This document shows, in pieces, positions 14,492-41,404 of a stretch of 64,000 bases of DNA. Origin of the DNA: Marinigracilibium pacificum. GTDB taxonomy: Bacteria > Bacteroidota > Bacteroidia > Cytophagales > Cyclobacteriaceae. The first letter of the stretch is position 1; every line of letters starts with the position of its first letter. The stretch spans positions 310,001 to 374,000 of the forward strand of contig NZ_JABBNU010000002.1 of the NCBI RefSeq assembly GCF_012926615.1, given 5' to 3'. The notes beneath the pieces are model-generated. The model saw only the letters and a list, made by a program, of their open reading frames with translations. It did not search any database and was not told where the DNA came from. The translations under genes were made by a program, and so were the position numbers.

Positions 14492-15451
14492 TTAGAAGTG
14501 ATTTAAAATTGTCTGCATTTGTTTTTGAAAGAAAATAGATGTTTCTGGAGGAATGACTTCCGAAGTTTTTCTATTTTCAAGTATATCCATTGAGACTGCA
14601 TCTATCTCAAATTCAAAGCCTTTACCTTTTCGATTGTCAAAATATTCATCAACCTTTTCTTCAACTTTGAATAAACTGCATGATTTTGCTCTCCAAAAAT
14701 CTGGTATATCGATATATCCCTCTTCTCCGATAATATAAGTGTGGTTATTAAGTTTTGATCTGAATGAGGTATGTAAAGAAGCCGACCTGGAATTTGAATA
14801 GTGGAAAAGCATATTTACTTCATCATCTGCCCCAGTAGGTGCACGATGTCCGAAAATGTCAATTTTCATTGGATCGTCTTTCATGAATAATCGGGCCATT
14901 GCAAGGGTATAAATTCCCATATCCAGCAATGATCCTCCAGCTAATTCCGGATTAAACAATCTTGATTTCGGGTCGAAAGGCTTCGGGTATCCAAAGTCTG
15001 ACTTAACTGTTAGAACTTCACCTATCCTACCTTCATTTATCCATTCTTGTGCTTTGATAATTGCCGGCAGGAAGTAGGTCCACATGCCTTCAATCAGATA
15101 TTGGTTATTAGATTTTGCGGTTTCAAATAATTCAATTGCCTCTTCAGGATTTACTGTAAGCGGTTTTTCACATAAAATGGCTTTGCCGGCATTAAGTGCA
15201 TCACTTGAATTTTTAAAATGAAAATTATGGGGTGTTGCTACATAAACTGCATCCACATCAGGTGAATTGTAAAGATCAGAATAGTTATAGAACGTAGAAG
15301 GGATTTTATACTGCTTCGCAAAGTCATCTGCTCTGTTTTTATTATTTGAAGCCACAGCAGTAATTTCACCATACTTAGAAAATTTAATGTCTGAAGCAAA
15401 CTGATGGGCAATTCTTCCCGGGCCTACAATACCCCATTTGATCTTTTTCAT
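14492..15451 (-). CDS. Gfo/Idh/MocA oxidoreductase, dihydrodiol/xylose dehydrogenase-like
   Basis: 319 residues with no signal peptide, so cytoplasmic. The N-terminal Rossmann fold (KWGIVGPGRIAHQFASDI) binds NAD(P), and CEKPL carries the catalytic Lys. The segment EGMWTYFLPAIIKAQEWI and GGSLLDMGIYTLAMA are typical of the dimeric dihydrodiol dehydrogenase / NADP-dependent D-xylose 1-dehydrogenase branch. It is divergent from the xylulokinase-HTH gene, 194 bases away, so an action on xylose is plausible but inferred only from branch and context. Other sugars are possible. Confidence 0.8.
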   Translation of the reverse strand: MKKIKWGIVGPGRIAHQFASDIKFSKYGEITAVASNNKNRADDFAKQYKIPSTFYNYSDLYNSPDVDAVYVATPHNFHFKNSSDALNAGKAILCEKPLTVNPEEAIELFETAKSNNQYLIEGMWTYFLPAIIKAQEWINEGRIGEVLTVKSDFGYPKPFDPKSRLFNPELAGGSLLDMGIYTLAMARLFMKDDPMKIDIFGHRAPTGADDEVNMLFHYSNSRSASLHTSFRSKLNNHTYIIGEEGYIDIPDFWRAKSCSLFKVEEKVDEYFDNRKGKGFEFEIDAVSMDILENRKTSEVIPPETSIFFQKQMQTILNHF

Positions 15452-15497
15452 TTTATAATTAAAGATTTTTTCATAAAGTTAAAAGACTTCTCTATAT

Positions 15498-15630
15498 GAG
15501 CAACTTCAATTCTTGGTAAGAATGACATTTATTTCTATTGCATTAATTATTTATTAGGTCTATTTAATTGTTTTCACAATATTTGAGTGAATTGGAAGTC
15601 AATAATTTTTGACGTATTATTGAAGTGACC
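15498..15630. promoter_or_regulatory. Divergent intergenic region with TGAAGT half-sites
   Basis: Between the divergent Gfo/Idh and xylulokinase-HTH genes (15452-15645). It holds GAGCAACTTCA (15498-15508), whose reverse complement reads TGAAGTTGCTC, and TGAAGTGACC (15621-15630). ATTGGAAGTCAATAAT (15591-15606) recurs, with one inserted base, before the second xylulokinase gene. These are candidate regulator sites; no clear -33/-7 promoter is seen. Confidence 0.4.
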
Positions 15631-15645
15631 AGATGATTTTTTTAT

Positions 15646-17625
15646 ATGTATTTGATAGGATATGACATAGGAAGTTCTTCAATTAAAGCAGCATTATTTA
15701 ATGCCGAAACGAATGAAACTGTTGCAGTGGTTCAATATCCTGAATCAGACATGGATATGATGTCAAGACAAAGTGGCTGGGCAGAACAGCAACCTGAAGT
15801 TTGGTGGAATGATTTTATTTCAGTTTCAAGAAAGTTATTGTCGGTTACATCTGTTAAATCTTCTGATATTCAATCTATTGGGCTTTCCTATCAAATGCAT
15901 AGTTTGGTTCTTATTGATAAATACAATCAGGTTCTCAGACCATCGATAATCTGGTGTGATAGTCGTGCAGTTGAAATTGGCAAAAAGGCATTTGAGATCT
16001 TAGGAAAGACTAAAACGCTACAACACTTGTTAAATTCTCCAGGTAATTTTACTGCATCAAAGTTAAAATGGGTCAAGGATAACGAACCCCACATTTATGA
16101 AAATACACATAAAGTATTATTGCCTGGAGATTACATTGCGATGCGCCTTACAGGTGAAATTAATACTACAATACCTGGGCTTTCTGAAGGCATATTCTGG
16201 GATTTTAAAAATAAGCGGATTTCTGAAGAATTACTTGAATATTATGGTATTGAACACAATTTAATACCTGAAACAACTTCTGTTCTCGGAATTCAGGGCA
16301 GAGTTACGAAACAAGCTGCCGAAATTACAGGTTTGGCGAAGGGAATTCCGGTGACTTACCGCGCTGGTGATCAACCTACGAATGCGATGTCTCTTAATGT
16401 TATGAGACCTAATGAAATAGCAGCTACATGTGGTACTTCAGGAGTAGTATATGGTGTGGTTGATAAGCTTTTATATGATGAAAAGTCGCGGGTGAATTCG
16501 TTTGCGCATGTTAACTATGAAGATAATTTCGATAGAATAGGTGTGTTATTGTGTCTGAATGGTGCAGGTGTTCAATATAGTTGGATGAAAAATCAAATAG
16601 CCCGATCGGGTAGAAGCTATTCAGATATGGAAAGAATGGTTTCAACAGTCCCAATTGGAAGTGATGGGTTGTGTATTCTCCCTTTTGGTAACGGGGCTGA
16701 ACGAATGCTGGAAAATAAAAATGTAAACTCTCATATATTTAACATTCAATTTAACAGACATAGCAGAGCTCATTTATATCGCGCAGCATTAGAAGGAGTT
16801 GCGTTTTCGTTCGTACATGGTGTGAATATATTAAAGGAAATGGGACTCAAAGTTGATGTGATGCGTGTAGGTAATGATAATATGTTTCAGTCAGAAGTGT
16901 TTTCTTCAACTATCGCTACAATGCTTGATTGCCATATTGAAGTTGTTGATACAACAGGTGCTATTGGAGCAGCAAGGGCAGCAGGTGTTGGTGCCGGTAT
17001 TTATAAAAGTCTGGAAGAGGCATTACAAGGGATTAGCCCCTCAATAGTCTATGGGCCGCAATTCAATAAAATTAATTGTCAGCAAGCTTATTATTTATGG
17101 GAATCTTGTCTTGAAACAGCACTTATTTCAAATCCTAGAAAGGATAACCCTGAAAAGTTAAAAGCTGAGCTGGAAAGCCTTGAAAAATCATTAAGTAAAA
17201 AGAGTATGGATATAACTTCTCTTCATTTGCAGCTGCAAGCCAGGGATGAGGTTCTAAATGAAGTTAAAAATGATCTGAAGAAACTATCTGATCATATCTC
17301 TGATGACAAGAAAAAAGTATTTGAACGAGTTATAAGAAAAATCAATCAAAATTTCTCTGCTGATACCCAATGGAAAAAGTTTGAAGATCATTTTGAACTT
17401 ATCCATAGTGATTTCTTTAAAGGGCTTAAAAATAGTTATCCGGACCTTTCAACCGCTGAGATTAAACTTTTGGCTTTATTGAAAATGAAATTAACAACCA
17501 AAGATATTGCCAGTCAATTGAATTTGTCAGTTAGAGGAGTCGAAACAAAGAGGTACAGGCTTCGTAAGAAACTAGATTTAAATAAAGAGTTAAGCCTTGA
17601 AGATTTTCTGGAGCAGGTATCCTGA
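15646..17625 (+). CDS. FGGY xylulokinase-like protein fused to C-terminal LuxR-type HTH module
   Basis: 659 residues in one uninterrupted frame. Residues 1-495 are a full FGGY kinase of the xylulokinase type: DIGSSS phosphate motif, QMHS (83-86), catalytic Asp242 in AGDQPTNA, and GTSG (263-266). Residues 496-600 are a coiled coil and linker. Residues 601-659 are a LuxR-type helix-turn-helix (LTTKDIASQLNLSVRGVETKRYRLRKKLDL). The linker pattern WKKFEDHFELIHSDFF plus 'SYPDLSTAEIKLLALL' is that of the C-terminal module of Bacteroidota TPR or Y_Y_Y regulators. The paralogue downstream lacks this tail. Against it, the kinase half has QMHS for QMHG and TCGTSG for TGGTSG, so it may have become a sensor that binds xylulose/ATP and controls the xylose genes. 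Catalysis cannot be excluded. Confidence 0.88.
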   Translation: MYLIGYDIGSSSIKAALFNAETNETVAVVQYPESDMDMMSRQSGWAEQQPEVWWNDFISVSRKLLSVTSVKSSDIQSIGLSYQMHSLVLIDKYNQVLRPSIIWCDSRAVEIGKKAFEILGKTKTLQHLLNSPGNFTASKLKWVKDNEPHIYENTHKVLLPGDYIAMRLTGEINTTIPGLSEGIFWDFKNKRISEELLEYYGIEHNLIPETTSVLGIQGRVTKQAAEITGLAKGIPVTYRAGDQPTNAMSLNVMRPNEIAATCGTSGVVYGVVDKLLYDEKSRVNSFAHVNYEDNFDRIGVLLCLNGAGVQYSWMKNQIARSGRSYSDMERMVSTVPIGSDGLCILPFGNGAERMLENKNVNSHIFNIQFNRHSRAHLYRAALEGVAFSFVHGVNILKEMGLKVDVMRVGNDNMFQSEVFSSTIATMLDCHIEVVDTTGAIGAARAAGVGAGIYKSLEEALQGISPSIVYGPQFNKINCQQAYYLWESCLETALISNPRKDNPEKLKAELESLEKSLSKKSMDITSLHLQLQARDEVLNEVKNDLKKLSDHISDDKKKVFERVIRKINQNFSADTQWKKFEDHFELIHSDFFKGLKNSYPDLSTAEIKLLALLKMKLTTKDIASQLNLSVRGVETKRYRLRKKLDLNKELSLEDFLEQVS

Positions 17626-17665
17626 ATTTGTTAAGAAGTTTGAAAGCAACTATTTTATTTTGATT

Positions 17666-17707
17666 TTATTGAAGTGAGTAACTTCATTATATTGGAAGGT
17701 CAATAAT
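17666..17707. promoter_or_regulatory. Inverted repeat and shared motif before the second xylulokinase
   Basis: TGAAGT (17670-17675), 5-nt spacer, ACTTCA (17681-17686) is an inverted repeat. TTATTGAAGTGA (17666-17677) also occurs at 15617-15628, and ATTGGAAGGTCAATAAT (17691-17707) matches 15591-15606 with one extra base. A looser copy, TGTAGTGAGCTAACTCCG, is at 22461-22478 after the symporter gene. This is a candidate operator for the kinase-HTH protein. The 293-base gap 17626-17918 has no other gene. Confidence 0.45.
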
Positions 17708-17918
17708 CTGTTTAATTGAATTCTTTGATTACTTTCAATTACCCTCATATATTATTCTTTTTTTCTACATATAAGAAATTGACGTAGTGATGAATGGATT
17801 TTGACGAATCCTTGTAGGGCTATGTTTTTTAGAAATATGGAAAATATCACTGTCTTTTGTTAAGGCTCGAATAAAAGCTGAAATCAAATACCAGATGAAA
17901 TTGAAAAGTAAGAAATAA

Positions 17919-19412
17919 ATGAGTAGCTATTTAATTGGATTTGACATTGGGAGTTCGTCAGTAAAGGCATCTTTAGTAAATGCAGATACAAGCGAGACAA
18001 TCCGAAGTGTCCATTATCCTCCGACTGAGATGGATGTGGTCTCCAGGCAAAAGGGCTGGGCGGAGCAAAATCCTGAATTATGGTGGGAAAATGTATGTAA
18101 TGCCAGTGAAAAACTACTTTCAGATATTTCAATAGACGTCTCAAAGATAATTGGAATTGGTTTAAGTTATCAAATGCATGGGCTTGTTTTAGTTGATGAA
18201 AATTATCAAGTACTCAGACCTTCAATAATCTGGAGTGATAGCAGGGCTGTAGAAATTGGAAACAAAGCCTTTATTGAAATTGGAGAGAAAAAATGTCTTG
18301 ATCACCTGATGAATTCTCCAGGTAATTTCACCATGTCAAAACTAAAGTGGGTCTTTGAAAACGAACCTGAAATTTATGAACAAGTCCACAAGTTTATGCT
18401 TCCGGGAGACTTTATTGCAATGAAAATGACCGGCAGGATCACCTCAACCATTCCTGGAATGTCTGAAGCTATGCTCTGGGACTTTAAAAATAATAAAATT
18501 GCAGATTTTGTACTTCAATATTTTGGCTTTGATCAAAAGGTAGTTCCTGAAATATTACCAACTTTTTCGATTCAAGGTAACTTAACGCCTGGTTCAGCAA
18601 AGCAGCTGGGATTATGTCCTGGAATACCAATAGCGTATCGCGCCGGCGACCAGCCAAATAATGCAATGTCATTAAACGTATTTAACCCGGGCGAAATTGC
18701 AGCAACTGGGGGTACTTCAGGGGTTGTGTATGCAGTCGTTGATCATCCTGTTTCTGATGAGCAGTCAAGGGTTAATGGTTTTGCACATGTTAATTATACC
18801 AAGTTGGATCCTAAAATTGGAGTTCTTTTATGTATCAATGGAACCGGCAGCCTTTACCGGTGGATAAGACAGCAGGTTGCAACTGATAATATTTCTTATA
18901 ATGATATGGAAAAGGCAGCATCAGCCGTTCCAGTGGGTTCAGATGGACTAAGAGTTATTCCATTTGGAAATGGAGCTGAGAGAATGCTCAACAATAGAAA
19001 TATTGGTTCACAAATAGTAAACCTTCAGTTTAACAGGCACACTAGAAGTCATCTATACAGAGCAGCTTTGGAAGGTATTGCTTTTTCATTTGTATATGGA
19101 ATCAAAATTCTAAACGAAATAGGGATCAGGTCACATGTGATTAGAGTAGGTAATGATAATCTCTTTCAGTCTGAAATTTTTGCTACTACGGTTTCAGCAT
19201 TAACAAAATGTAAAATCGAAGTCATAGGAACAACAGGTGCTGCGGGAGCTGCTCTAGGAGCGGGAATAGGTGTTGGGCGATATGAAAATACTCAACAGGC
19301 CTTTGGTAAAATTGAAGTTAAAGATGTGATTGATAAGCAAGATTTAAAAGGGAGCTACTCCATTGCCTATAAAAATTGGACAAAAGATCTTGGCAAGCTT
19401 ATCATTGATTAG
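17919..19412 (+). CDS. xylB: Xylulokinase
   Basis: 497 residues, the usual length for XylB. It phosphorylates D-xylulose with ATP to xylulose 5-phosphate in the cytoplasm. Motifs are intact: DIGSSSVKA, QMHG, the catalytic Asp (about 244) in AGDQPNNA, TGGTSG, and the C-terminal GTTGAAGAALGAGIG. It is closely similar over its whole length to the kinase half of the preceding fusion protein, so the two are tandem paralogues; this one carries no regulator domain. xylA follows 28 bases downstream and the symporter after that, forming a xylose operon. Confidence 0.93.
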   Translation: MSSYLIGFDIGSSSVKASLVNADTSETIRSVHYPPTEMDVVSRQKGWAEQNPELWWENVCNASEKLLSDISIDVSKIIGIGLSYQMHGLVLVDENYQVLRPSIIWSDSRAVEIGNKAFIEIGEKKCLDHLMNSPGNFTMSKLKWVFENEPEIYEQVHKFMLPGDFIAMKMTGRITSTIPGMSEAMLWDFKNNKIADFVLQYFGFDQKVVPEILPTFSIQGNLTPGSAKQLGLCPGIPIAYRAGDQPNNAMSLNVFNPGEIAATGGTSGVVYAVVDHPVSDEQSRVNGFAHVNYTKLDPKIGVLLCINGTGSLYRWIRQQVATDNISYNDMEKAASAVPVGSDGLRVIPFGNGAERMLNNRNIGSQIVNLQFNRHTRSHLYRAALEGIAFSFVYGIKILNEIGIRSHVIRVGNDNLFQSEIFATTVSALTKCKIEVIGTTGAAGAALGAGIGVGRYENTQQAFGKIEVKDVIDKQDLKGSYSIAYKNWTKDLGKLIID

Positions 19413-19440: not shown

Positions 19441-20808
19441 ATGAGTAAAAAAATGAAAACACTAAATGATCAGGGAGAAGGGGTTGTTTTAGGTGAAAAA
19501 GAATACTTTAAGGGTATTTCTAAAATAGAATTTGAAGGGAGAGATTCTGATAATCCACTTGCTTTTAAATATTATGATGAGAATAAGAAAGTTGGTGGTA
19601 AAACACTCAAAGAGCATTTTCGATTTGCAGTTGCCTATTGGCATACATTCTGCGGTACTGGTGATGATCCGTTTGGGGTAGGCACAAAAGAATTCCCCTG
19701 GTTGGAAAAAGCAGATGCAATCGGAAAGGCAAAAGATAAAATGGACGCTGCATTTGAGTTTATTTCCAAACTAGGTGTTCCTTATTATTGTTTCCATGAT
19801 TTTGATCTGGTTGAAGAGGGGGGTACAATCACAGAATCCGAAAAGAGGCTCGATGAAATTTCTGATTATGCTTTAGAAAAACAAAAGGCTTCAGGGGTTA
19901 AACTTCTGTGGGGGACAGCCAATTTATTCAGTCATCCTAGATTTATGAATGGAGCCATTACAAATCCGGATTTTGATATTTTGGCTCATGCAGGTGCACA
20001 GGTTAAAAATGCACTTGATGTTACGATCAAACTGGGTGGAGAAAATTATGTTTTTTGGGGAGGACGCGAGGGGTATATGTCTCTCCTGAATACTAATATG
20101 AAGAAGGAGCAGGAACATTTTGCCAGATTTCTTCATATGGCGAAAGATTATGCAAGAGCTAATGGTTTTAAGGGGCAGTTTTTTATAGAGCCAAAGCCAG
20201 CAGAACCAACTAAGCATCAGTATGATTTCGATGCAGCTACTGTAATTGGTTTTTTAAGACATAATGGGTTGGATAAAGACTTTAAATTAAACCTTGAAGT
20301 AAATCATGCCACACTGGCTAATCATACTTTTGCCCATGAGCTACAAGTAGCTGTTGATGCCGGAATGCTAGGGAGTATTGATGCAAACAGGGGTGATTAC
20401 CAGAATGGCTGGGATACTGATCAATTTCCCGTTAATATTTATGAAGTTGTTCAGGAAATGATGATTATCCTTCAGGGAAATGGGTTTAAAGGTGGAGGAG
20501 TTAATTTTGATGCAAAACTAAGAAGAAATTCAACCGATCTGGAAGATATATTTTACGCTCATATCGGAGCAATGGATGTATATGCCCGGGCATTGATGAT
20601 AGCTCATGATATACTCGAAAATTCGGATTTCATGAATATGAGAAAAGCACGATATAGTTCTTTCAATACATTGGAAGGGACAGCTTTCGAATCCGGGAAA
20701 TTATCATTAGAGGATCTTCATAAAATTGCACACCGTAACGGAGAACCACGATTACGAAGTGGAAAGCAGGAGCTGTTTGAAAATATTATTAACCAATATA
20801 TCCGATAA
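19441..20808 (+). CDS. xylA: Xylose isomerase
   Basis: 455 residues, a class II-length xylose isomerase that converts D-xylose to D-xylulose. Visible signatures are [14 protein letters not shown], the catalytic His in CFHDFDL, the metal-binding region [31 protein letters not shown], and [17 protein letters not shown]. It acts with the kinase upstream; the symporter starts 3 bases after its stop. Together they make the standard isomerase route into the pentose phosphate pathway. Confidence 0.97.
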
Positions 20809-20811
20809 TAT

Positions 20812-22425
20812 ATGAATGTAAGACTTGAGGCCCTTGACTGGGTAATTATCGGTATTTATTTTGTGGTTCTTTTTGCGATTGCCATATGGGTAATCAGAAG
20901 GCGTAAAGACAATACGGAAGACTATTTTTTAGCTGGAAGAAATGCAGGATGGTTTGTTGTCGGAGCCTCCATTTTTGCTTCGAATATTGGTTCAGAACAC
21001 GTAGTTGGGTTGGCGGGCACAGGAGCTGAAAGTGGAATGCCAATGGCGCACTTTGAATTACATGCATGGATAGTTCTGTTACTGGGATGGGTTTTTTTAC
21101 CATTCTATGTGAGAAGTGGAGTGTTTACTATGCCGGAATTTCTTGAGAAAAGATTTAATAGCACTGCCAGATGGTGGTTATCAATTATTTCACTCATTGG
21201 ATATGTCTTGACCAAGGTTTCAGTATCAGTATATGCAGGAGGAATTGTTATTGAAGCATTAACCGGGCTTGATTTCTGGACTGGAGCTTTAATTACTGTA
21301 ATTATTACAGGTTTGTACACTGTTTTAGGGGGAATGAGAGCTGTAATATATACTGAAACTCTGCAGACAATAGTCCTTATTGTCGGATCTCTGTTGGTTA
21401 CAGTTTTGGGACTAATGAAAATTGGTGGATGGAGTGAATTGAAATCAATTGCAGGCAGCAGTCATTTTAATATGTGGCGGCCTTCAGATGATCCCGATTT
21501 TCCATGGACTGGATTAGTCTTTGGAGGTTCCATTGTTGGAATCTGGTATTGGTGTACTGATCAATACATTGTGCAACGAACCCTTGCTGCAAAAAATATT
21601 AAAGTCGGTCTACAAGGGTCAATTTTTGGTGCTTACCTGAAGTTGACTCCGGTGTTTTTATTCCTTGTTCCAGGTATAATTGCCTATGCTTTAAATAAAA
21701 CAGGGCAGTTGCAATTGGAATCATCCGACCAGGCACTTCCAACCCTGATGGCTGCATTGTTACCAACTGGAATAAGAGGTGTCGTGGCCGCAGGATTACT
21801 TGCTGCCTTAATGAGTTCACTGGCATCTGTTTTTAATTCCTGTTCAACACTCTTTACTGTTGATATTTATAAGAAGCTACATCCTGGAGTATCTGAAAAA
21901 AAGCTAGTGAATATTGGTCGGATAGCCACTTTTGTTGTTGTTATTCTGGGAATATTATGGATACCGGTAATGGCTAATATCTCCGGGGTTCTCTATGAAT
22001 ATCTTCAAAGTGTCCAGGCTTATATTGCACCACCTGTAACAGCAACCTTTTTACTGGGTATATTCTGGAAAAGAATAAACTCAAAAGGAGCCCTTGCTAC
22101 ACTGATTGGAGGCTTTGTTCTCGGAATGAGTCGCTTAATTGCCGAGCTAAAAAAGGATTCTCTTACAGGGATTCTTCATGATTGGGCAACAATCAACTTT
22201 CTGCACTTTTGTGTGTTGTTGTTTGTGATTTGTGTAATCATTTGTATTACTGTTTCATTATTATCTGCAGCTCCTGATGCTAAAAAGATAGAAGGGCTAA
22301 CTTATGGGACATTATCTGGTAATGACAAAATAAGTAACAGGAATCGTTACGGATTAAAGGAGATTTTTTTATCAATAGGTTTGATAGTAATTATAATTTG
22401 GATCTTAACCTATTTTACTGGTTAA
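20812..22425 (+). CDS. Sodium/solute symporter (SSS, SGLT-like), probable xylose uptake
   Basis: 537 residues with about 14 hydrophobic segments. The N-terminus (EDYFLAGRNAGWFVVGASIFASNIGSEHVVG, shown here in parts) is typical of SGLT-type sugar/sodium symporters, including the GSEH motif, and WCTDQYIVQR and ALMSSLASVFNSCSTLFT match the sodium-site helices. Its place as last gene of the xylB-xylA operon suggests xylose as substrate; this is from context, since SSS transporters are broad. It starts 3 bases after the xylA stop. Confidence 0.88.
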   Translation: MNVRLEALDWVIIGIYFVVLFAIAIWVIRRRKDNTEDYFLAGRNAGWFVVGASIFASNIGSEHVVGLAGTGAESGMPMAHFELHAWIVLLLGWVFLPFYVRSGVFTMPEFLEKRFNSTARWWLSIISLIGYVLTKVSVSVYAGGIVIEALTGLDFWTGALITVIITGLYTVLGGMRAVIYTETLQTIVLIVGSLLVTVLGLMKIGGWSELKSIAGSSHFNMWRPSDDPDFPWTGLVFGGSIVGIWYWCTDQYIVQRTLAAKNIKVGLQGSIFGAYLKLTPVFLFLVPGIIAYALNKTGQLQLESSDQALPTLMAALLPTGIRGVVAAGLLAALMSSLASVFNSCSTLFTVDIYKKLHPGVSEKKLVNIGRIATFVVVILGILWIPVMANISGVLYEYLQSVQAYIAPPVTATFLLGIFWKRINSKGALATLIGGFVLGMSRLIAELKKDSLTGILHDWATINFLHFCVLLFVICVIICITVSLLSAAPDAKKIEGLTYGTLSGNDKISNRNRYGLKEIFLSIGLIVIIIWILTYFTG

Positions 22426-33001: not shown

Positions 33002-34224
33002 AGGCATCATTATTCATATTGATAAACTTTTTAATCACAACTACTATCTGTGCTCAGGTAGCTGAATTTGAAAAATTATTCACTGATTATATGCCATCAA
33101 AACAACAGTGGGAGGAGAACATCCGGCCCGAGGTGAAGAAAATTTTTCAGTCACAAATTTATGGCGTATTGCCAAGTGAAGATCTATATGTTTCAAAAAA
33201 CATAGCTACCATTCCATTTACAATCGGGGACCAGGAGGCTATAATGAAACAGATTGAATTAAATTTTCACGCTTCATCTTCTTCAGATTCGGCTACTGTC
33301 AATGTACTATTGATTACTCCAATTGATCAGATCTCACCGGTTTTCGTCGGTATAAATTCCTATGGAAATCATACCATTCATAGCCATGATCAGATAGAAA
33401 TACATGATAATTATGTAAAAAATAAACCGGAGTACGAAATCTTTAATAATCATGCAGGCGAATCAGCGAGAGGTGTGCAGGCACATCGCTGGCCGGTAGA
33501 AAGAATTCTGAAAAGAGGTTATGGTCTGGCAACCTTTCATATTTCAGAAATATACCCTGATCGAAACGATGGCGAGGATAAAAGCAATTTAAGATTATTT
33601 GAAGATTATAATCCGGATCCCGGGCAAAGAGCAGGAGCTCTTGCAATGTGGGCATGGGCGATCAGTCGAGTAATTGATCATTTACAAAGTGAACCGCTCG
33701 TTAACAAGAACCAGATTTTTGTAATTGGTCATTCGCGAAGAGGTAAAGCAGCTCTACTCGCTGGTGCAATGGACGAACGTATTGCTGCTGTTTTTTCTAA
33801 TGATTCAGGTTGTGGAGGCGCAGCCCTTTCTAAAAGTAAAACTGGAGAGTCTGTTGCTCAAATAAACGATCAGTTTCCACATTGGTTTGCTGGAAATTTT
33901 AAGAAATATAATAATGCAGCGGATGAACTTCCTGTAGATCAGCACCTGCTATTGGCTCTTGTAGCACCAAGATTATTATATGTGGCGAGCGCAGAACAGG
34001 ATGCCTGGGCCGATCCGGCAAGTGAGTTTCTTTCTGCCAGAATAGCTTCAGCAGCCTGGAATTTGTATGATTTGAATGGGTTGGAAGGGAAAACTCAACC
34101 GGAAGTAAATATTGCGCTTAATAGAGGATCCGTAGGGTATCACATCAGAAGTGGTAATCATGACCTGACAAGATTTGACTGGGAGCGATTCATGGATTTT
34201 ACTGATATACATTTCAAAAATTGA
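32998..34224 (+). CDS. CE15 glucuronoyl esterase-like protein
   Basis: 408 residues, GTG start overlapping the capA stop. Signal peptide MKASLFILINFLITTTICAQ. The catalytic serine lies in GHSRRGKAAL (Ser246), the CE15 signature, and a late His (about 388, SGNHDLT) completes the triad with an acidic residue between. CE15 enzymes cut the ester between glucuronic acid and lignin or methyl groups in glucuronoxylan. This is the clearest pointer in the locus to a glucuronic-acid-bearing polymer. Periplasmic or secreted. Confidence 0.9.
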   Translation: MKASLFILINFLITTTICAQVAEFEKLFTDYMPSKQQWEENIRPEVKKIFQSQIYGVLPSEDLYVSKNIATIPFTIGDQEAIMKQIELNFHASSSSDSATVNVLLITPIDQISPVFVGINSYGNHTIHSHDQIEIHDNYVKNKPEYEIFNNHAGESARGVQAHRWPVERILKRGYGLATFHISEIYPDRNDGEDKSNLRLFEDYNPDPGQRAGALAMWAWAISRVIDHLQSEPLVNKNQIFVIGHSRRGKAALLAGAMDERIAAVFSNDSGCGGAALSKSKTGESVAQINDQFPHWFAGNFKKYNNAADELPVDQHLLLALVAPRLLYVASAEQDAWADPASEFLSARIASAAWNLYDLNGLEGKTQPEVNIALNRGSVGYHIRSGNHDLTRFDWERFMDFTDIHFKN

Positions 34225-34231
34225 AGCATTG

Positions 34232-35503
34232 ATGAAATCTACAAGAAGAAATTTTTTTAAAAAGGCTGCATTGACCGGATTGGCCGGGTCGGTATCGCTG
34301 AGTACGTTTGGTGCTGTTGGAAATAAATGGGCCAACTCTTCAAATGTAAACGAAAAATATAAAAAGCTCGATGAAATTTTAACACAGCCAGTATTAAAAA
34401 AAGACCTGTTTAAAAGTCCCCTAATCATAAAAAATGTCGAGTTAAGTGAGTATCAGGGCAATTATATTTGTCAGGTTACTACAGAAGATGGGCATAAGGG
34501 TATATCCGTAAGTAACAACTTAAGGATGCATTACTTATACCCCATTTTTGTCAAACAGGTTGCTCCATATTTTATAGGGAAAGATGCCAGAGAGCTTGAT
34601 GCATTAATCGAAGGTGTTTATACATTCAAGAGCAATTACAAAATGCAAAGCTATGCTCTTTGGGTGCCAGTGGCTACGCTGGAGTTTGCCATTCTGGATT
34701 TGCTGGGAAAAATTGCAGGATTACCAATGGGTCAGCTTGTGGGTGATGTTTACAATAAGGAAGTAGGAGTTTATCAGGCAAATAATTACCGTGGTAAGTC
34801 TGCAGAAGAATCGATAGAACTTCTTGCTGAAAAATTAGCAGAGACAAAATCCAAGGCGCTGAAATTTAAAATTGGCGGACGAATGAATAATCCGGATACT
34901 CCTCCGGGAAGAAGTGAAAAATTAATTCCATTAGTTAGAAAACGGTTCGGTGATGATATCGCAGTATATGTTGACGCCAACAGTTCTTACAATGTAGAAG
35001 AAGCCATTAAAATTGGGCGATTGATTGAAGAAAATAACTTTAATTTTTTCGAAGAGCCAATTCCTTTTGATTGGTATGAAGAAATCAAAGTAGTAAAAGA
35101 CGCTCTAAAAGTACCCATCGCAGGCGGCGAACAAGAAGGGAGTATGCATAACTTTCGTTGGTTGCTTGCCAATGATGCTCTGGACATTGTACAGCAGGAT
35201 ATTTTCTATTTCGGCGGGATGATCAGGGCCATGAAAGTGGCAAAAATGGCACATGCATTAGGAAAAACATGTGTGCCTCATATTTCTGGTTCAGGCCTTG
35301 GCTATTTATACATGTTGCATTTCGTTTCGGTAATTCCGAATGCAGGACCTCACCATGAATTTAAAGGTTTCAATGAGGAAATACCTTTTGAATGTGATTC
35401 GTGTGACATGAAAATTGTTGATGGAAAAATCAAAGTACCTACCGGGCCAGGCTCGTCGATTGAAATTGATCCTGATTTTATTAATAAACATGTGAAGATA
35501 TGA
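34232..35503 (+). CDS. Tat-exported enolase-superfamily (mandelate racemase/muconate lactonizing-type) enzyme
   Basis: 423 residues from the ATG at 34232, which begins a Tat signal (MKSTRRNFFKKAALTG); an upstream alternative at 34175 lies inside the CE15 gene. Barrel residues are complete: KFK (211-213), metal ligands Asp248 (VDANSS), Glu274 (FFEEP) and Glu300 (GGEQ), and His350 (PHIS). Members dehydrate or racemise sugar acids or cyclise muconates, normally in the cytoplasm. Export through Tat is unusual and suggests a folded metalloenzyme acting on an acid sugar in the periplasm. Which acid is not decidable here. Confidence 0.85.
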   Translation: MKSTRRNFFKKAALTGLAGSVSLSTFGAVGNKWANSSNVNEKYKKLDEILTQPVLKKDLFKSPLIIKNVELSEYQGNYICQVTTEDGHKGISVSNNLRMHYLYPIFVKQVAPYFIGKDARELDALIEGVYTFKSNYKMQSYALWVPVATLEFAILDLLGKIAGLPMGQLVGDVYNKEVGVYQANNYRGKSAEESIELLAEKLAETKSKALKFKIGGRMNNPDTPPGRSEKLIPLVRKRFGDDIAVYVDANSSYNVEEAIKIGRLIEENNFNFFEEPIPFDWYEEIKVVKDALKVPIAGGEQEGSMHNFRWLLANDALDIVQQDIFYFGGMIRAMKVAKMAHALGKTCVPHISGSGLGYLYMLHFVSVIPNAGPHHEFKGFNEEIPFECDSCDMKIVDGKIKVPTGPGSSIEIDPDFINKHVKI

Positions 35504-36612
35504 GAATGAGAAGAATTATTTATGCCTTGCTAGTTTTGTGTTTATGTGAGACTGCAGAAGCTCAAAATTATTTAAACTACCAATTACGGTTGGAACCGGT
35601 CTGGTCACGTGTAGCAGATGCTTTGGGAGAACCGGGTTCGGTGGAAAGTGTTGAGTTTTCAAATAATGGTAAATATATAGTTAGTGGCACCAAGTATGAC
35701 AATTCGGTTATAATGTGGCGTACCTCTGACGGAGCCGAATTGTGGAGAAACTATACTGAGCAGGAGGTTGAACGTGTGGGGTGGTCTTCAAATGACCAAT
35801 ATGTTGCTGCAGTAAGCGAGGATTATTTAATTACAATTTACGATAGCAAATCAGGAGATGTAACGAAAACCTACAAGTTAAATAAAGCAGCCGACGGACT
35901 AACCTGGTCAAATAATGGGTTAATTATGGCTGTCGGTGAAGAGCGAACTGAGAAAAGTGATGGTACAACCGAAGGATGGATCAGAATATATGACCTGGAA
36001 AATGATGATGAACCCGAGTCAATTAATTTTGGCAATACGGTAAATGAATTATTTTTTACGAATGATGATAAATACCTTCTTGCTGTTGGTCACGGAGCAG
36101 TAAAAGTTTACAATACTTCAAACTGGAAGCTAGAGCAAACCCTGAATCCGGATTATTATGTGACATTCACGAGTGGAATCTTTTCACCAGATGCAAAATA
36201 CGTAGTCGCCGTTGGCCAGGGAGGCACATCGAGAGGAACAGTTTTTTTATGGGAATGGAAAACCGGTGAATTAGTTAAAACCTTTAACCATACCGGTAAA
36301 AAAATTGAATCAGTTACCTGGCATCCAAACGGTCAGTACATAGCTCATGCCGGTCATGATCCTTACATCTATGTTTATCGCCTAAATGATATTTTAAATA
36401 ATGGAAATGACGCTATTCCGGTAGCCCATCGTGTATGGGCGAGTGATCATGCGGAGTATATTGACTTTAATAAAGATGGCAGCTTCTTATGTAGTGCACA
36501 TCAAAATGGCCTGATAAAGCTTTGGGTATGGATGGGTGAAGATTCTTCGGTTAATTCCAGACGACATGATTGGGTAAGAGAAAATCAAAAGGACAATGAA
36601 AATGGAAACTAA
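35500..36612 (+). CDS. Exported WD40-repeat beta-propeller protein
   Basis: 370 residues with signal peptide (MRMRRIIYALLVLCLCETAEAQ). About seven WD40-like units are seen (for example VEFSNNGKYIVSGTKYDNSVIMW, WSSNDQYVAAVSEDYLITIY, WHPNGQYIAHAGHDPYIYVY). No catalytic residues are apparent, so a binding role is likely. Its start overlaps the stop of the enolase-superfamily gene by 4 bases (ATGA), which couples the two. Confidence 0.85.
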   Translation: MRMRRIIYALLVLCLCETAEAQNYLNYQLRLEPVWSRVADALGEPGSVESVEFSNNGKYIVSGTKYDNSVIMWRTSDGAELWRNYTEQEVERVGWSSNDQYVAAVSEDYLITIYDSKSGDVTKTYKLNKAADGLTWSNNGLIMAVGEERTEKSDGTTEGWIRIYDLENDDEPESINFGNTVNELFFTNDDKYLLAVGHGAVKVYNTSNWKLEQTLNPDYYVTFTSGIFSPDAKYVVAVGQGGTSRGTVFLWEWKTGELVKTFNHTGKKIESVTWHPNGQYIAHAGHDPYIYVYRLNDILNNGNDAIPVAHRVWASDHAEYIDFNKDGSFLCSAHQNGLIKLWVWMGEDSSVNSRRHDWVRENQKDNENGN

Positions 36613-36670
36613 TTGTCATCATACTATAGAATCCATTGAAAGCGTCGGTAGTAAGAAAGAGAAAGGCTTT

Positions 36671-38065
36671 ATGACAATTCTTTTTAAGTCAACCTTTATT
36701 TACCTTTTATTACTATTATCCACAGGACTGGTATCTTTTGCCCAAACGGAAAAGCCGAATATAATTATTATAATGGCTGATGATTTAGGCTATGGAGATG
36801 TAGGGTTCAATGGAAACGATATTGTAAAAACTCCTGAGCTGGATCAAATGGCTGCTGAATCATTAGTGATGGACCGATTTTATGCAGCAGCACCTATTTG
36901 TTCTCCAACCAGAGCCAGTGTACTAACTGGTCGTAATGCTTTCAGACAAGGAATTTTTGCTCCTCACACTGCCGGAATGAGAGTAGGTGAGACTACACTG
37001 GCAGAAGTATTAAAAGAAGAGGGCTATAAAACCGGGATTTTTGGTAAATGGCATCTTGGCTGGATAATGCCTGATGCCGAACTTGATACCAGAGGGTTTT
37101 ATTCTCCACCATGGCACCATGGATTTGAAGAGAGTTTTGTGACAAAATCGGCAATGCCTACCTGGAACCCTTCTGTAACTCCATGGGATATCTGGAACAA
37201 TAAAGAGGGCGAAATGTGGACCACTTCGGTATATCTCGAAAACAAGGTCCTTGTAAAAGATAATCTCGCAGGTGATGACAGCCGGGTAATCATGGACAGA
37301 GTAATTCCTTTTATTGAACGTTCAGTTGACCAAAATAAACCTTTTTTCTCCTGTATTTGGTTGCATACGCCTCACGAACCAGTAGTTGCTGGTCCGGAAT
37401 ATAAAGCAATGTATGAGGGCATGTCAGAAGATGCCAAAAACTATTACGGTACAATAACTGCTATGGACGAGCAAATTGGCCGGTTGAGAAGAAAGCTTAA
37501 AGAATTGAATATCGACAGAAAAACAATAGTTTGGTTTTTCAGTGATAATGGCCCAAATAAGGAGTTTGTCGAAAAAGGAGTCGCTTCTGCAGGTAAATTC
37601 CGCGGTACAAAGCATACTATTTATGAAGGTGGCCTAAGAGTGCCTTCATTGATTGAATGGCCAGGGAAAATTCAACCAAACAGGACTGATGCTATGTCTG
37701 TCACCAGTGACATAATGCCGACCTTATTGGAGTTAATTAATAGTGGTTATACTTCCGAAGTTCCGCTGGATGGGATCAGTTTAAGGCCACTTGTTTTGAA
37801 TGAAAACTCATTACAGGATAGGTATATCGCTTTCGGATACATGAGAAGATGGGATAACACCAATCAGCTGGCAATCATGAATGATAATTATAAACTGGTA
37901 ATCGACGGTGATAAGAAGGAATTATATGATCTGAAGAATGATCCTGAGGAGACTAAAAATCTAAAGGATACAAAACCAGATATTTATGACATGTTACTCC
38001 AGGAGCTTACCAGGTGGCAAGATTCTGCAAGAATGAGTCGAGAGGGATCAGATTATAAATATTAA
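36671..38065 (+). CDS. Formylglycine-dependent sulfatase (S1 family)
   Basis: 464 residues from the ATG at 36671, picked because it opens a signal peptide (MTILFKSTFIYLLLLLSTGLVSFAQ) right behind an A/G-rich stretch; upstream starts at 36596 or 36602 lie inside the WD40 gene. The N-terminal IIIMADDLGYGD gives the metal Asp pair, and CSPTR (Cys77) is the sulfatase motif, converted to formylglycine by a maturase not in the window. SDNGPN and GKFRGTKHTIYEGG are the later active-site blocks. It removes sulfate from a sugar in the periplasm. Confidence 0.95.
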   Translation: MTILFKSTFIYLLLLLSTGLVSFAQTEKPNIIIIMADDLGYGDVGFNGNDIVKTPELDQMAAESLVMDRFYAAAPICSPTRASVLTGRNAFRQGIFAPHTAGMRVGETTLAEVLKEEGYKTGIFGKWHLGWIMPDAELDTRGFYSPPWHHGFEESFVTKSAMPTWNPSVTPWDIWNNKEGEMWTTSVYLENKVLVKDNLAGDDSRVIMDRVIPFIERSVDQNKPFFSCIWLHTPHEPVVAGPEYKAMYEGMSEDAKNYYGTITAMDEQIGRLRRKLKELNIDRKTIVWFFSDNGPNKEFVEKGVASAGKFRGTKHTIYEGGLRVPSLIEWPGKIQPNRTDAMSVTSDIMPTLLELINSGYTSEVPLDGISLRPLVLNENSLQDRYIAFGYMRRWDNTNQLAIMNDNYKLVIDGDKKELYDLKNDPEETKNLKDTKPDIYDMLLQELTRWQDSARMSREGSDYKY

Positions 38066-38075
38066 GAAACGACCA

Positions 38076-39767
38076 ATGACATTAAATGAGGTTTTCATAC
38101 TTGCCATTTTGCCAATCGTATTGGCCGGACTTCTTCTGGTAGTGTTTAGGTTGCCGGCAAAGGTCGTTATGCCATTTGCTTTATTCGCAACCATTATAAT
38201 TGCCTATACAGGATGGGGTATATCGTTAATCGATATTGCAGCCTCCTTTCTACAGGGCTTAGTTATCACCGCTGATATTCTTTACATAATTTTTGGAGCC
38301 ATTCTCTTATTAAATGTTATAAAATATTCCGGAGGTATCAGTATAATTCGACAGAGTTTCATTGAAATAAGTCCGGATAGAAGGGTGCAGGTTGTGATGA
38401 TTGCCTGGCTTTTTGGATCTTTTATTGAGGGTGCTGCGGGTTTCGGAGCTCCGGCTGCAGTTGTCGCTCCACTATTGGTAGCGCTGGGTTTTCCGGCAAT
38501 GGCAGCGGTTATGCTGGGATTAATGGTACAAAGTACTGCGGTTACTTTTGGTAGTGTAGGAACACCTATGCTGATTGGGGTAACACAAGGGATCCAAAAT
38601 CCTTTACTTGAAGAGCAATTGGCTGCTTCAGGAATAACTTTCGCAGATTATTTGCAATTAATTACCAATCATGTTGTCGTTTTTCATGCCATTGCTGGTG
38701 TTCTGATGCCTACATTCATGGTCGTTATGATGACCCGCTTTTTTGGGAAAAATAAATCATGGAAAGAAGGGCTCGATATTTTTCCATTTGCTCTGTTAGG
38801 TGGATTGGTATTTATCATTCCTTATGTTTTGACCGGTTGGTTTCTTGGACCGGAATTCCCTTCGTTAATTGGTTCTTTCATTGGGATTTTTGTAATGATT
38901 CCATTAGCCAGAAAGGGAATTTTGATACCAAAAAAAGTATGGGACTTCCCTGATCAGAATAGCTGGCCAAAAAACTGGTTTGGTAAGATTAAAGTAGAAG
39001 AAAATTTAAGTACTGGAAATTCCGGATCACATAGATTCTTAAAAGTTTGGAGTCCATACATTTTACTGGCTGCACTCCTGGTGATCAGCAGACTTCCTCA
39101 ATTACCAATAAAGGAATTTTTGACTGGAGCAAGTATTAATTTTAATGATATTCTTGGTACAGGGCTTTCGGCTTCCTCATCACCGCTTTACTTACCCGGA
39201 ACTGTGTTTTTATTAGTTAGCATATTTTCAATTTTCCTCTTTAAAGTAAAGATCAATACAGCGATGAGTGCGCTGAAAGATAGCGGTAGAATGCTTTTAG
39301 GCGCTGCATTGGTTTTAGTTTTTACTATACCGATGGTCAGGATCTATATCAATTCAGGTAACAACCCACTCGAAATGGTTTCAATGCCTATAGCCATGGC
39401 TGAATGGATGGCAATTAATGTTGGAAATGCTTACCCGTTAATTGCTCCGGATATTGGTGCATTGGGGGCATTCATTGCGGGTAGTAATACAGTAAGTAAT
39501 TTAATGTTTAGTCTGTTTCAGTTTGGCGTTGCAGAACAACTCCAAATGTCGACGATAATCATTGTTTCACTTCAGGCAGTAGGTGCTGCTGCCGGAAATA
39601 TGATCGCTATCCATAATGTTGTCGCAGCGTGTGCTACAGTCGGTTTGCTGGGTAGCGAAGGGTTGGTGTTACGGAAGACTATTATTCCTACGGTCTATTA
39701 TCTGTTTGTAGTAGGACTACTTGGCCTTTTGGCAATCCATGGATTTGACCTTGTTGATAATTTCTAA
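38076..39767 (+). CDS. L-lactate/glycolate permease-type transporter (LctP family)
   Basis: 563 residues with about 13 hydrophobic segments and the LctP hallmarks (FGSFIEGAAGFGAPAAVVAPLLVALGF in part, TFGSVGTPMLIG, GALGAFIAGSNTVSNLMF). LctP members carry L-lactate, D-lactate or glycolate with protons into the cell. The next gene is malate synthase, which uses glyoxylate, so glycolate is a reasonable substrate, but this is inference. It lies 10 bases after the sulfatase stop. Confidence 0.92.
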   Translation: MTLNEVFILAILPIVLAGLLLVVFRLPAKVVMPFALFATIIIAYTGWGISLIDIAASFLQGLVITADILYIIFGAILLLNVIKYSGGISIIRQSFIEISPDRRVQVVMIAWLFGSFIEGAAGFGAPAAVVAPLLVALGFPAMAAVMLGLMVQSTAVTFGSVGTPMLIGVTQGIQNPLLEEQLAASGITFADYLQLITNHVVVFHAIAGVLMPTFMVVMMTRFFGKNKSWKEGLDIFPFALLGGLVFIIPYVLTGWFLGPEFPSLIGSFIGIFVMIPLARKGILIPKKVWDFPDQNSWPKNWFGKIKVEENLSTGNSGSHRFLKVWSPYILLAALLVISRLPQLPIKEFLTGASINFNDILGTGLSASSSPLYLPGTVFLLVSIFSIFLFKVKINTAMSALKDSGRMLLGAALVLVFTIPMVRIYINSGNNPLEMVSMPIAMAEWMAINVGNAYPLIAPDIGALGAFIAGSNTVSNLMFSLFQFGVAEQLQMSTIIIVSLQAVGAAAGNMIAIHNVVAACATVGLLGSEGLVLRKTIIPTVYYLFVVGLLGLLAIHGFDLVDNF

Positions 39768-39799
39768 TATAAATTTTGAACCTTGAAAAAAAATCAGAT

Positions 39800-41404
39800 A
39801 TGAAAGCAGAGAATGTTGCAGATATTGAAATTACAGGGAAAATTAAACCTGAATACGATAAAATATTAACACCGGAGGCTGTTGAGTTTATAGCCATATT
39901 ACATGCAAAGTTTAATGGGACAAGGAAGAAATTATTAGCTGAACGCGAAATAATACAACGCGCCATTAATGCCGGGAATTTCCCTTCATTTAGAGATGAA
40001 ACAAAAGATATCCGGGAAGGAGACTGGCAAATATCAGGAGTGCCGGATGATCTTCAGGATAGAAGAACCGAGATAACCGGACCAACTAATCGTAAAATGG
40101 TTATCAATGCACTGAATAGTGGTGCAAAGGTGTTTATGGCAGATTTTGAAGACGCTAATTCACCTTCTTGGGAAAACACACTTGACGGTCAGGTTAATCT
40201 GTATGATGCCAACAGAAATCAAATTGATTTTACAGCAGAAAATGGCAAAAGTTATAAACTGAATGAATCTCACGCCACACTTAAAGTACGTGCACGGGGC
40301 TGGCACCTGGATGAAAAACACGTATTAATTCATGGTGAGCCGGTTTCAGCATCAATATTCGATTTTGGATTGTATTTTTTCCACAATGCCAAATACCTTC
40401 TGGAAAATGGTTCAGGGCCATATTTTTACCTGCCAAAGCTTGAAAATCACAGAGAGGCACGATTGTGGAACGATGTATTTATCGAAGCTCAAGATCTGTT
40501 GGGTATTCCTCAGGGAAGCATTAAAGTAACAGTACTCATCGAAACAATCACTGCTGCTTTTGAGATGGAAGAAATTATCTATGAATTAAGGAATCACCTT
40601 GTTGCATTAAATGCCGGTCGTTGGGATTATATTTTTAGCGTCATTAAAAAGTTTAGAAACTTTAAAAGTTTTGTGTTACCTGACAGAAGCCAGGTAACGA
40701 TGGGTGTTCCTTTTATGAAAGCCTATGCTATGCAGGTAGTAAAAGCCTGTCACAAACGAGGTGCTCATGCCATTGGAGGTATGTCTGCGTTTATCCCTTC
40801 AAAATCAGAAGAGGCTAATAAAAAAGCATTCGAAAAAGTTAAAGCAGATAAAAGTACTGAAGCATCGCAAGGCTATGACGGCACTTGGGTTGCACACCCT
40901 TTCCTGGTACCGGTAGCAATAGAAGAGTTTAATAAAGCACTGGGTGATAAACCACATCAAAAGCATGTTCTCCATGAAGATTATGAATTGTCGGGCGAAG
41001 AGCTAATTGATGTGAAAATTCCGGGAGGAACCATTACTGAGGCTGGAGTCAGAACGAATATAAATGTGGGTATTTTATACATAGAATCATGGCTTCATGG
41101 TGTAGGTGCTGCGGCTTTGTATGATTTGATGGAAGATGCCGCTACGGCTGAGATTAGTCGGGCCCAGGTATGGCAATGGTTGCATGTTGACTCGGCAAAA
41201 CTTGATGACGGAAGACATTTGGATATGAATCTATACAAAAAATTACTCAGTGAAGAAGTAGAAAAGTGTAAAGAGTTATTGGGTGAAGAAAGGCTTTCAA
41301 CCGGCAATCTTGACAAGGCAGTTGAACTGTTCGACGAACTGGTCACTAACTCTAATTTCAAAGAATTTTTAACTCTTGATGCATATAAAATTTTAAAAGG
41401 ATAA
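39800..41404 (+). CDS. aceB: Malate synthase (type A)
   Basis: 534 residues from the ATG at 39800 (a TTG at 39776 would add 8 residues). It condenses glyoxylate with acetyl-CoA to malate. The type A features are clear: VFMADFEDANSPSWENTLDGQVNL, the HVLIHGEPVSASIFDFGLY region, SIKVTVLIETITAAFEMEEI and the 'GRWDYIFS' block, which hold the catalytic Asp/Arg and magnesium ligands. No isocitrate lyase or glycolate oxidase is in the window, so the source of glyoxylate is open. Position between a permease and a GH2 enzyme, all in one direction, argues that it belongs to the glycan locus. Confidence 0.96.
   Translation: MKAENVADIEITGKIKPEYDKILTPEAVEFIAILHAKFNGTRKKLLAEREIIQRAINAGNFPSFRDETKDIREGDWQISGVPDDLQDRRTEITGPTNRKMVINALNSGAKVFMADFEDANSPSWENTLDGQVNLYDANRNQIDFTAENGKSYKLNESHATLKVRARGWHLDEKHVLIHGEPVSASIFDFGLYFFHNAKYLLENGSGPYFYLPKLENHREARLWNDVFIEAQDLLGIPQGSIKVTVLIETITAAFEMEEIIYELRNHLVALNAGRWDYIFSVIKKFRNFKSFVLPDRSQVTMGVPFMKAYAMQVVKACHKRGAHAIGGMSAFIPSKSEEANKKAFEKVKADKSTEASQGYDGTWVAHPFLVPVAIEEFNKALGDKPHQKHVLHEDYELSGEELIDVKIPGGTITEAGVRTNINVGILYIESWLHGVGAAALYDLMEDAATAEISRAQVWQWLHVDSAKLDDGRHLDMNLYKKLLSEEVEKCKELLGEERLSTGNLDKAVELFDELVTNSNFKEFLTLDAYKILKG

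Follow-up and report, generated by a model that had tools for sequence, protein, structure and literature searches.

A conserved fusion of an FGGY xylulokinase-like fold with a LuxR-type helix-turn-helix: a candidate regulator of the xylose regulon in Bacteroidota

What is the role of a sugar kinase that carries a DNA-binding tail? The question is raised by a 64,000-nucleotide stretch of the Marinigracilibium pacificum genome (contig NZ_JABBNU010000002.1, positions 310,001 to 374,000; hereafter the window), in which a gene resembling an FGGY xylulokinase continues in frame into a coiled coil and a LuxR-type helix-turn-helix (HTH), next to a tail-less paralogue. A previous reading, made from the sequence alone, took the product to be a substrate-sensing transcription factor built from a metabolic enzyme. 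The fusion, the kind of HTH, and the co-occurrence of an operator-like repeat with the fusion in other genomes agree with that proposal, and it is from these that we infer the regulatory role. With a probability of about three in four, the fusion would control the xylose regulon as a one-component regulator that uses its FGGY fold as sensor and acts on the predicted operators. It is apparently a conserved, once-evolved FGGY-kinase/LuxR-HTH regulator of a kind, the enzyme-derived one-component regulators, that is already known.

The fusion protein, its spread and its origin

The gene and its parts are the following (positions in the window).

15646..17625, + strand: fusion gene (FGGY xylulokinase-like fold, coiled coil and LuxR-type HTH, 659 amino acids), based on the open reading frame (ORF), Pfam, AlphaFold2 and 21 relatives (one partial)
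15646..17130, + strand: kinase fold, residues 1-495, proposed sugar sensor, based on Pfam, AlphaFold2, fold comparison and alignments
17149..17292, + strand: long helix/coiled coil, residues 502-549, proposed dimerisation element and signal linker, based on the AlphaFold2 model
17446..17583, + strand: LuxR-type (GerE) HTH, residues 601-646, based on Pfam and alignment to the tails of Y_Y_Y-type regulators

The 659-residue frame opens with ATG, contains no internal stop, and passes the Pfam cut-offs for FGGY_N (residues 2-245, 166 bits against 28.8), FGGY_C (residues 259-449, 42.3 against 27), and the GerE/LuxR HTH (residues 601-646, 27.6 against 23.5). In the AlphaFold2 model (pLDDT 80.5, pTM 0.68), the kinase fold extends to about residue 495 and is followed by the helix at 502-549, by further helices up to 597, and by the HTH, whose helices occupy residues 603-613, 618-625, and 629-642. 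The in-frame union of kinase, coiled coil, and HTH claimed earlier is thereby confirmed. The description of the kinase part as a full xylulokinase stands with regard to the FGGY fold and to similarity, the nearest solved folds being xylulose kinases (3ifr, 5vm1, and 2itm). TIGR01312, the NCBIfam XylB family, is likewise the top family match; however, the fusion reaches 297 bits and the tail-less paralogue 284.5 bits, both under the equivalog cut-off of 380.25, and the label therefore rests on similarity and gene context. At E<=1, Pfam gave no Y_Y_Y or propeller sensor domain, no ROK domain, and no Nudix domain in the fusion.

The architecture is conserved among relatives, as the sequence-only reading had predicted. 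A search of 295 genomes sampled in the family, including that of the window, yielded 17 full-length fusions free of stops among the matches listed (the best few candidates were scored per genome), and the 16 others are 56-72% identical to that of the window; in one of them (L021) a masked run of N lies within the kinase part. A frameshift or assembly artefact is ruled out by this unbroken architecture in 17 of 295 genomes. At E<=1e-190, a threshold that divergent or fragmentary fusions would escape, one additional fusion (G497) was found in a class sample of 395 genomes and none in an order sample of 291, while the 13 genomes of a second family (f4) hold two, G497 and G925. A scan of named contigs with the tails of the 17 fusions as queries gave 9 kinase fusions among the best 80 of 191 relatives. 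Three of these are new, all in metagenome-assembled genomes (Lewinella sp., Phaeodactylibacter sp., and a partial one from Saprospiraceae), which brings the total to 22. Carriers in the named contigs include Fulvivirga kasyanovii, Reichenbachiella agariperforans, R. versicolor, and Roseivirga sp., and length, HTH core, and architecture are kept across genera and two families.

The remaining 71 tails among those best 80 lie mostly in proteins of about 900-1000 residues. Four that were examined (L058, L063, L064, and L070) are Reg_prop/Y_Y_Y proteins with GerE (E<=0.01), and one is a TPR protein with GerE; the genome of the window encodes four other such LuxR-type tails. Both the tail alignments and these domain scans bear out the earlier assignment of the HTH to the Y_Y_Y/TPR-LuxR kind of Bacteroidota.

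With regard to origin, a kinase-domain tree of 49 rows places 21 fusions and one tail-less protein (L024, from G285) on a single branch with a support of 100/100. The partial fusion (L100) was excluded from this tree and from the operator count, and the tail-less rows number 27, two of which (L138 and XL041_9) are one gene, with L024 counted separately. In G285 (L053 9271-10800) the kinase frame is intact and relics of the lost HTH tail lie behind it, and the neighbourhood matches that of the Roseivirga fusion of G290 in ORF order and sizes. Therefore, the tree branch together with this neighbourhood and these relics indicates that the kinase part of the fusion arose once, with one secondary tail loss. 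A tree of the tails (L081 excluded) was also tried for a single origin of the tail, which is not separately supported because of its long branches and the three label changes that it needs.

Predicted operators and their coupling to the fusion

A direct repeat, TGACGTA-N4-TGACGTA, was found by reading the sequence upstream of fusion and xylB genes. The elements of the window that matter here are the following.

15610..15627, + strand: predicted operator TGACGTATTATTGAAGTG, a direct repeat of half-sites with 11-bp spacing, ending 18 bp before the start codon of the fusion
17780..17819, + strand: predicted array of four half-sites, TGACGTA / TGAATGG / TGACGAA / TGTAGGG, with an 11-bp period, ending 99 bp before the xylB start
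17919..19412, + strand: tail-less XylB paralogue, proposed working xylulokinase and predicted target, based on Pfam, the TIGR01312 score and similarity

The last of these confirms the tandem paralogue reported beside the fusion, being 58% identical to it across fusion residues 2-494. An operator-like repeat lies in each of the two intergenic regions that had been named as likely binding sites (15452-15645 and 17626-17918), and in relatives this repeat is found together with the fusion.

When TGRMGTA-N4-TGRMGTA was scored with at most one mismatch within 200 bp of the fusion start codon, a site was present upstream of 17 of 21 fusions. In 14 of these 17, the distance from its end to the start codon is 2-24 bp; the three exceptions have distances of 77 bp (L019), 82 bp (L017), and 131 bp (L018). 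In G285, which lost the tail, the operator (L053) reads TGAAGTACACTTGAGGTA. A conserved -7 box (consensus TAnnTTTG) over the fusion operator was noticed by eye in a few genomes; it is left unclaimed because no column before the repeat reached 60%.

The same repeat occurs before xylB in genomes with the fusion. With at most one mismatch in the 400 bp upstream of xylB, the site is present in 14 of 17 fusion genomes versus none of 35 controls without the fusion. The controls (12, L025-L036; 3, L135-L137; 20, L149-L168) were picked by hand, not at random, from high-scoring XylB matches in genomes in which no fusion was seen, some of them incomplete. Half-site pairs before xylB peak at a spacing of 11 bp (33 observed versus a shuffled mean of 0.4), with echo peaks at 22 bp (14 pairs) and 33 bp (12 pairs), and only 2 pairs at 11 bp are found in the 35 controls. 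A model of the four-half-site array gives the 17 fusion genomes scores from 34.3 down to -2.6 bits and the controls -6.0 at best, so that all 17 lie above the best control, also where xylB is unlinked to the fusion. In 13 of the 17 genomes, 83-129 bp separate the end of the array from the xylB start codon.

Whole genomes were scanned in a set of 36, comprising 19 with the fusion, one with the tail lost, and 16 without it. The strict form, TGRCGTA-N4-TGRCGTA, was found in 16 of the 19 fusion genomes, in none of the 16 without the fusion, and not in the tail-lost genome; there are 22 copies in all, 19 of them at the fusion or xylB. Of the three others, one precedes a SusC-type gene of G497 and two belong to duplicated gene copies of G036. 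These two identical copies (L147, 6855 and 8665) each have a perfect TGACGTA-N4-TGACGTA beside them, which is taken as chance; the genes look like an IS110-type transposase, and a mobile element carrying the operator would be a means of spreading it. A looser site lies inside an ORF of G251. Among 215 other ORFs of the fusion neighbourhoods, 15 have a site with at most one mismatch within 200 bp upstream: 6 are xylB, 2 are sugar transporter genes divergent from xylB, 4 share the site of the fusion as divergent or neighbouring frames, and the last 3 go back to two further weak sites, which adjoin Gfo/Idh genes in L040 and L042.

The xylB gene is on a different contig from the fusion in G002, G007, and G174, and on the same contig but about 200 kb away in G124 and more than 600 kb away in G211; its site is nevertheless exact in G002, G007, and G124 and has one mismatch in G174 and G211. 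Within one genus (g37), G142 and G185 have neither fusion nor site, whereas G036, G252, G268, and G279 have both. This coupling in trans, with sites at unlinked xylB genes in step with the presence of the fusion, speaks most strongly for the fusion as the putative binder of the TGACGTA repeats.

Several observations weigh against this interpretation. The looser exact pattern has 55 copies in the 36 genomes versus 30 of its reversed control and is therefore not specific by itself; in the genome of the window, a search with two mismatches returned 36 matches versus 71 for the reversed control, and no further convincing operator site was seen there. The xylB gene of the window is among the three that fail the one-mismatch test (its best site has 3 mismatches), and its array, at 6.6 bits, is one of the weaker ones, a copy recognisable solely as an array. 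At the fusion itself, L134 and L139 lack a site in the 200 bp upstream, that of L077 has two mismatches, and that of L022 overlaps the start codon. An eighteenth fusion genome, G497, whose xylB upstream region was added after the table of 17 and is counted apart, has no site at xylB, but has one before the SusC-type gene 3′ of the fusion. In addition, 6 of the 17 family fusions are without xylB or xylA in the fetched stretch (about 6 to 10 kb on each side), a single origin of the tail draws no separate support from the tail tree, and the copy of the window holds its catalytic motifs and could still be an enzyme.

Catalytic residues, mechanism and alternative explanations

The protein of the window retains D7, Q83-M84-H85, D242, and G263-T264-S265-G266. 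D242 aligns with Asp233 of Escherichia coli XylB, which we take to be the catalytic aspartate, and is present in 22 of 22 fusions, and QMH is kept in all 21 that cover the site. D7, the equivalent of E. coli Asp6, is kept in 16 of 21 fusions and GTSG in 16 of 22. Five fusions (L017-L020 and L022) have Glu or Gln in place of D7 and Ala-Glu-Ser-Gly in place of Gly-Thr-Ser-Gly, so that T264, the equivalent of E. coli Thr255, is replaced by Glu; L139 has Asp-Thr-Ser-Gly. In SePSK, a related FGGY kinase, Asp8 matters for activity and its mutation cut D-ribulose binding by about two thirds, while Asp221 contacts the sugar (PMC4880283). In our reading, Asp8 probably belongs to the same N-terminal motif as the D7 site of the fusion.

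The sequence-only reading had pointed to TCGTSG and QMHS as departures from the xylulokinase motifs. Both are present, yet they are weak signs of an altered enzyme, as the residue matching Cys262 is Leu in E. coli XylB, and GTSG, QMH, D7, and D242 are intact in the protein of the window; QMHS is a lineage-specific variant of 4 of the 21 fusions covering the site. A loss of catalysis in the copy of the window was not concluded from them. Residue 262, the first Gly of TGGTSG, is Ser or Cys in 22 of 22 fusions versus none of 27 tail-less rows, and other fusion-specific changes are Leu to Met at 413 (22 of 22) and Arg or Lys to Cys at 343 (21 of 22). A tail-less XylB accompanies the fusion in 19 of 19 genomes (the copy of G290 is cut by the contig end). 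Because of this and of the five fusions without the Asp6 and Thr255 equivalents, catalysis by the fusion looks dispensable, and kinase activity has probably been lost in some relatives. The simplest reading would be a sugar-binding sensor freed from the need to catalyse.

Taken together, we infer DNA binding, ligand, sign, and signal transfer as follows. In an ancient fusion, a duplicated XylB-type FGGY kinase would have acquired its coiled-coil/LuxR-type HTH tail from a Bacteroidota regulator. The HTH would bind TGACGTA direct repeats at 11-bp spacing, one helical turn, with one pair at the start codon of the fusion and about four half-sites before the xylB-xylA-transporter genes. The sensor would be the kinase fold and its ligand a pentose, most probably D-xylulose, perhaps together with ATP; either binding of the ligand or closure of the domains would alter DNA binding via the coiled coil. 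Since a site at 2-24 bp before the start codon suits blocking, autorepression is favoured, and the fusion most likely represses its own gene; at xylB, repression until the sugar arrives is most likely, with activation as the alternative. Phosphorylation would be left to the neighbouring tail-less XylB, the kinase activity of the fusion not being needed. A bolder form of this model, given somewhat less than even odds, is a new regulator class in which an FGGY pseudo-enzyme senses D-xylulose, binds helically phased TGACGTA arrays as side-by-side units, autorepresses at the start codon, and has abandoned phosphotransfer in the Reichenbachiella branch. If so, the sensor would read pathway flux rather than external xylose, D-xylulose being the product of XylA.

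Activation is a possible, though less favoured, sign of control, in which the sugar-bound protein would recruit RNA polymerase at xylB and exert feedback on the fusion gene. Activators are common among LuxR-type HTH proteins, and the position of the xylB array leaves room for a promoter after it; the site at the fusion gene, which lies so close to the start codon in most genomes and overlaps it in L022, suits blocking instead. It is unlikely that the fusion is a bifunctional trigger enzyme, i.e., a working xylulokinase that also binds DNA according to turnover or its xylulose/ATP state. The complete set of D7, QMH, D242, and GTSG in the window and the retention of D7 and GTSG in most fusions speak for it, but the five fusions lacking D7 and T264 have kept the HTH and the sites at fusion and xylB, and the universal tail-less XylB and replacement of Gly262 also argue against it.

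It is quite improbable that the repeats belong to another xyl regulator, with the fusion merely one of its targets and its HTH in another role. Footprints do not identify their binder, and the HTH class is not rare, as the four other tails in the same genome illustrate. On the other hand, the strict site is nearly confined to fusion and xylB and is absent from the 16 searched genomes without the fusion, two of them in genus g37, although no search for other co-occurring regulators was made. It is very improbable that the gene encodes just another xylulokinase, duplicated and with a C-terminal fusion of no significance: FGGY domains do join other domains, as in the kinase/glycerol-phosphate-oxidase-type fusion of G560, but the operator footprint is at odds with this reading, and so is the conservation of length, architecture, and HTH core in different genera and in two families.

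Relation to known systems and genomic surroundings

Metabolic enzyme folds serve as sensors of transcription factors in the enzyme-HTH regulators NadR and BirA, which differ from the fusion in enzyme, HTH, and pathway. NrtR proteins combine an enzyme-like (Nudix) fold with an HTH, and XylR of the E. coli type belongs to the AraC family. The Y_Y_Y/Reg_prop LuxR-type and TPR-LuxR regulators share the C-terminal coiled coil and HTH of the fusion, but they sense through a propeller/Y_Y_Y or TPR region, whereas the sensor of the fusion would be the kinase fold. XylB of E. coli (2itm) and Rhodospirillum rubrum (3ifr) shares the kinase fold (TM-score 0.82-0.85, normalised by target), QMH, and the catalytic Asp; the fusion differs in its regulator tail, the replaced Gly262, and the loss of catalytic residues in some members.

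The ROK-family XylR of Firmicutes also joins a sugar-kinase-like fold to an HTH and controls xylose genes, often adjoining ones, as a likely repressor (PMC2873477). The analogy to ROK repressors drawn earlier holds for this logic, but the fusion is no ROK protein: it is of the FGGY family, without a ROK domain, and has a LuxR-type HTH placed C-terminally after a coiled coil, unlike the N-terminal HTH of ROK repressors, and predicted direct-repeat operators with 11-bp spacing. The NrtR-family XylR (BT0791) and AraR of Bacteroides are likewise one-component regulators of pentose use in Bacteroidota (PMC3878776, PMC4666351), but have no FGGY domain and a fold unrelated to that of the fusion. XylRA of Vibrio strain EA2, homologous to XylR of E. 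coli, is similar as a single regulator of xylose/xylan loci with an AT-rich direct-repeat motif, and its GH26/GH43/MFS/xylAB context resembles L040-L042; however, it belongs to an unrelated family and is an activator with xylose as effector (PMC12125979). The consulted portion of the openly licensed literature, including PMC10766802, describes no FGGY-HTH regulator, which is no proof of absence.

If the regulator reading is true, a sugar kinase would have been converted into a transcription factor a second time and independently, FGGY after ROK, and living genomes would still display the fusion, the tail-less enzyme from which it came, its degenerate members, a natural case of tail loss, and the predicted operators. 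The fusion would provide a candidate regulator for xylose/xylan loci of Cytophagales and Saprospirales, with exact predicted DNA sites available for testing, and a warning that such proteins are easily annotated as a mere second xylulokinase.

The genes around the fusion and xylB in the window are as follows.

14492..15451, - strand: Gfo/Idh/MocA oxidoreductase, divergent, sharing the operator-bearing intergenic region, based on Pfam and the neighbourhoods of relatives
19441..20808, + strand: XylA, a xylose isomerase judging by similarity (AP_endonuc_2 TIM barrel), whose gene follows xylB in relatives and, in the xylB operon, is a predicted target
20812..22425, + strand: sodium:solute symporter of the SSF family, probably the sugar importer of the xylB operon, based on Pfam and identical order in L037-L039

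Also downstream of the fusion lies a FecI/FecR/SusC-type set (Pfam). Of the 17 family genomes, 10 have xylB and/or xylA no farther than 10 kb from the fusion, and in an eleventh the distance is 14 kb; in G925 the genes adjoin the fusion. Gfo/Idh/MocA genes 52-60% identical to that of the window recur near the fusion or xylB in L040, L042, L045, and L140, those of L040 and L042 with a one-mismatch operator site upstream; because of this, the divergent oxidoreductase may belong to the same regulon. A GH43 beta-xylosidase occurs in the fusion neighbourhoods of L040-L042; L040 and L041 also have a sugar transporter there, L040 shows a GH26 match, and L041 and L042 encode a protein similar to the GH26 protein of the window. 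Beta-1,3-xylan loci have GH26, GH3/GH43, XylA, and XylB as components, and the main text of the study describing them mentions neither Fulvivirga nor Reichenbachiella (PMC12125979).

Other FGGY fusions were surveyed with PF00370 in 296 genomes, and five long frames were fetched from the best matches among those listed; domain outcomes cover L174 and L175, two further frames were seen as ORFs, and L177 was left aside. L174 191-3361 (- strand, G560) joins an FGGY kinase to an FAD-dependent glycerol-3-phosphate-oxidase-type enzyme in 1056 residues, and L175 1602-3812 (+ strand) is an FGGY kinase bearing about 250 extra N-terminal residues without a Pfam match, its start codon being uncertain.

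Farther downstream of the fusion, positions 25020-61000 of the window have the appearance of an algal polysaccharide locus, with the following members.

32998: glucuronyl-esterase-like protein
36596 and 54867: sulfatases
41410: GH2
43219: GH28
44687: GH3
47034-49319: GH26+CBM96
49669: 3-keto-disaccharide hydrolase

Within this SusC/SusD-type cluster, an enolase-superfamily enzyme, a transporter of the L-lactate permease family, and a malate synthase stand in line with a sulfatase (34175-41404), the malate synthase being unexpected in such a setting, and a gene for a WD40-repeat protein is found at 35500-36612.

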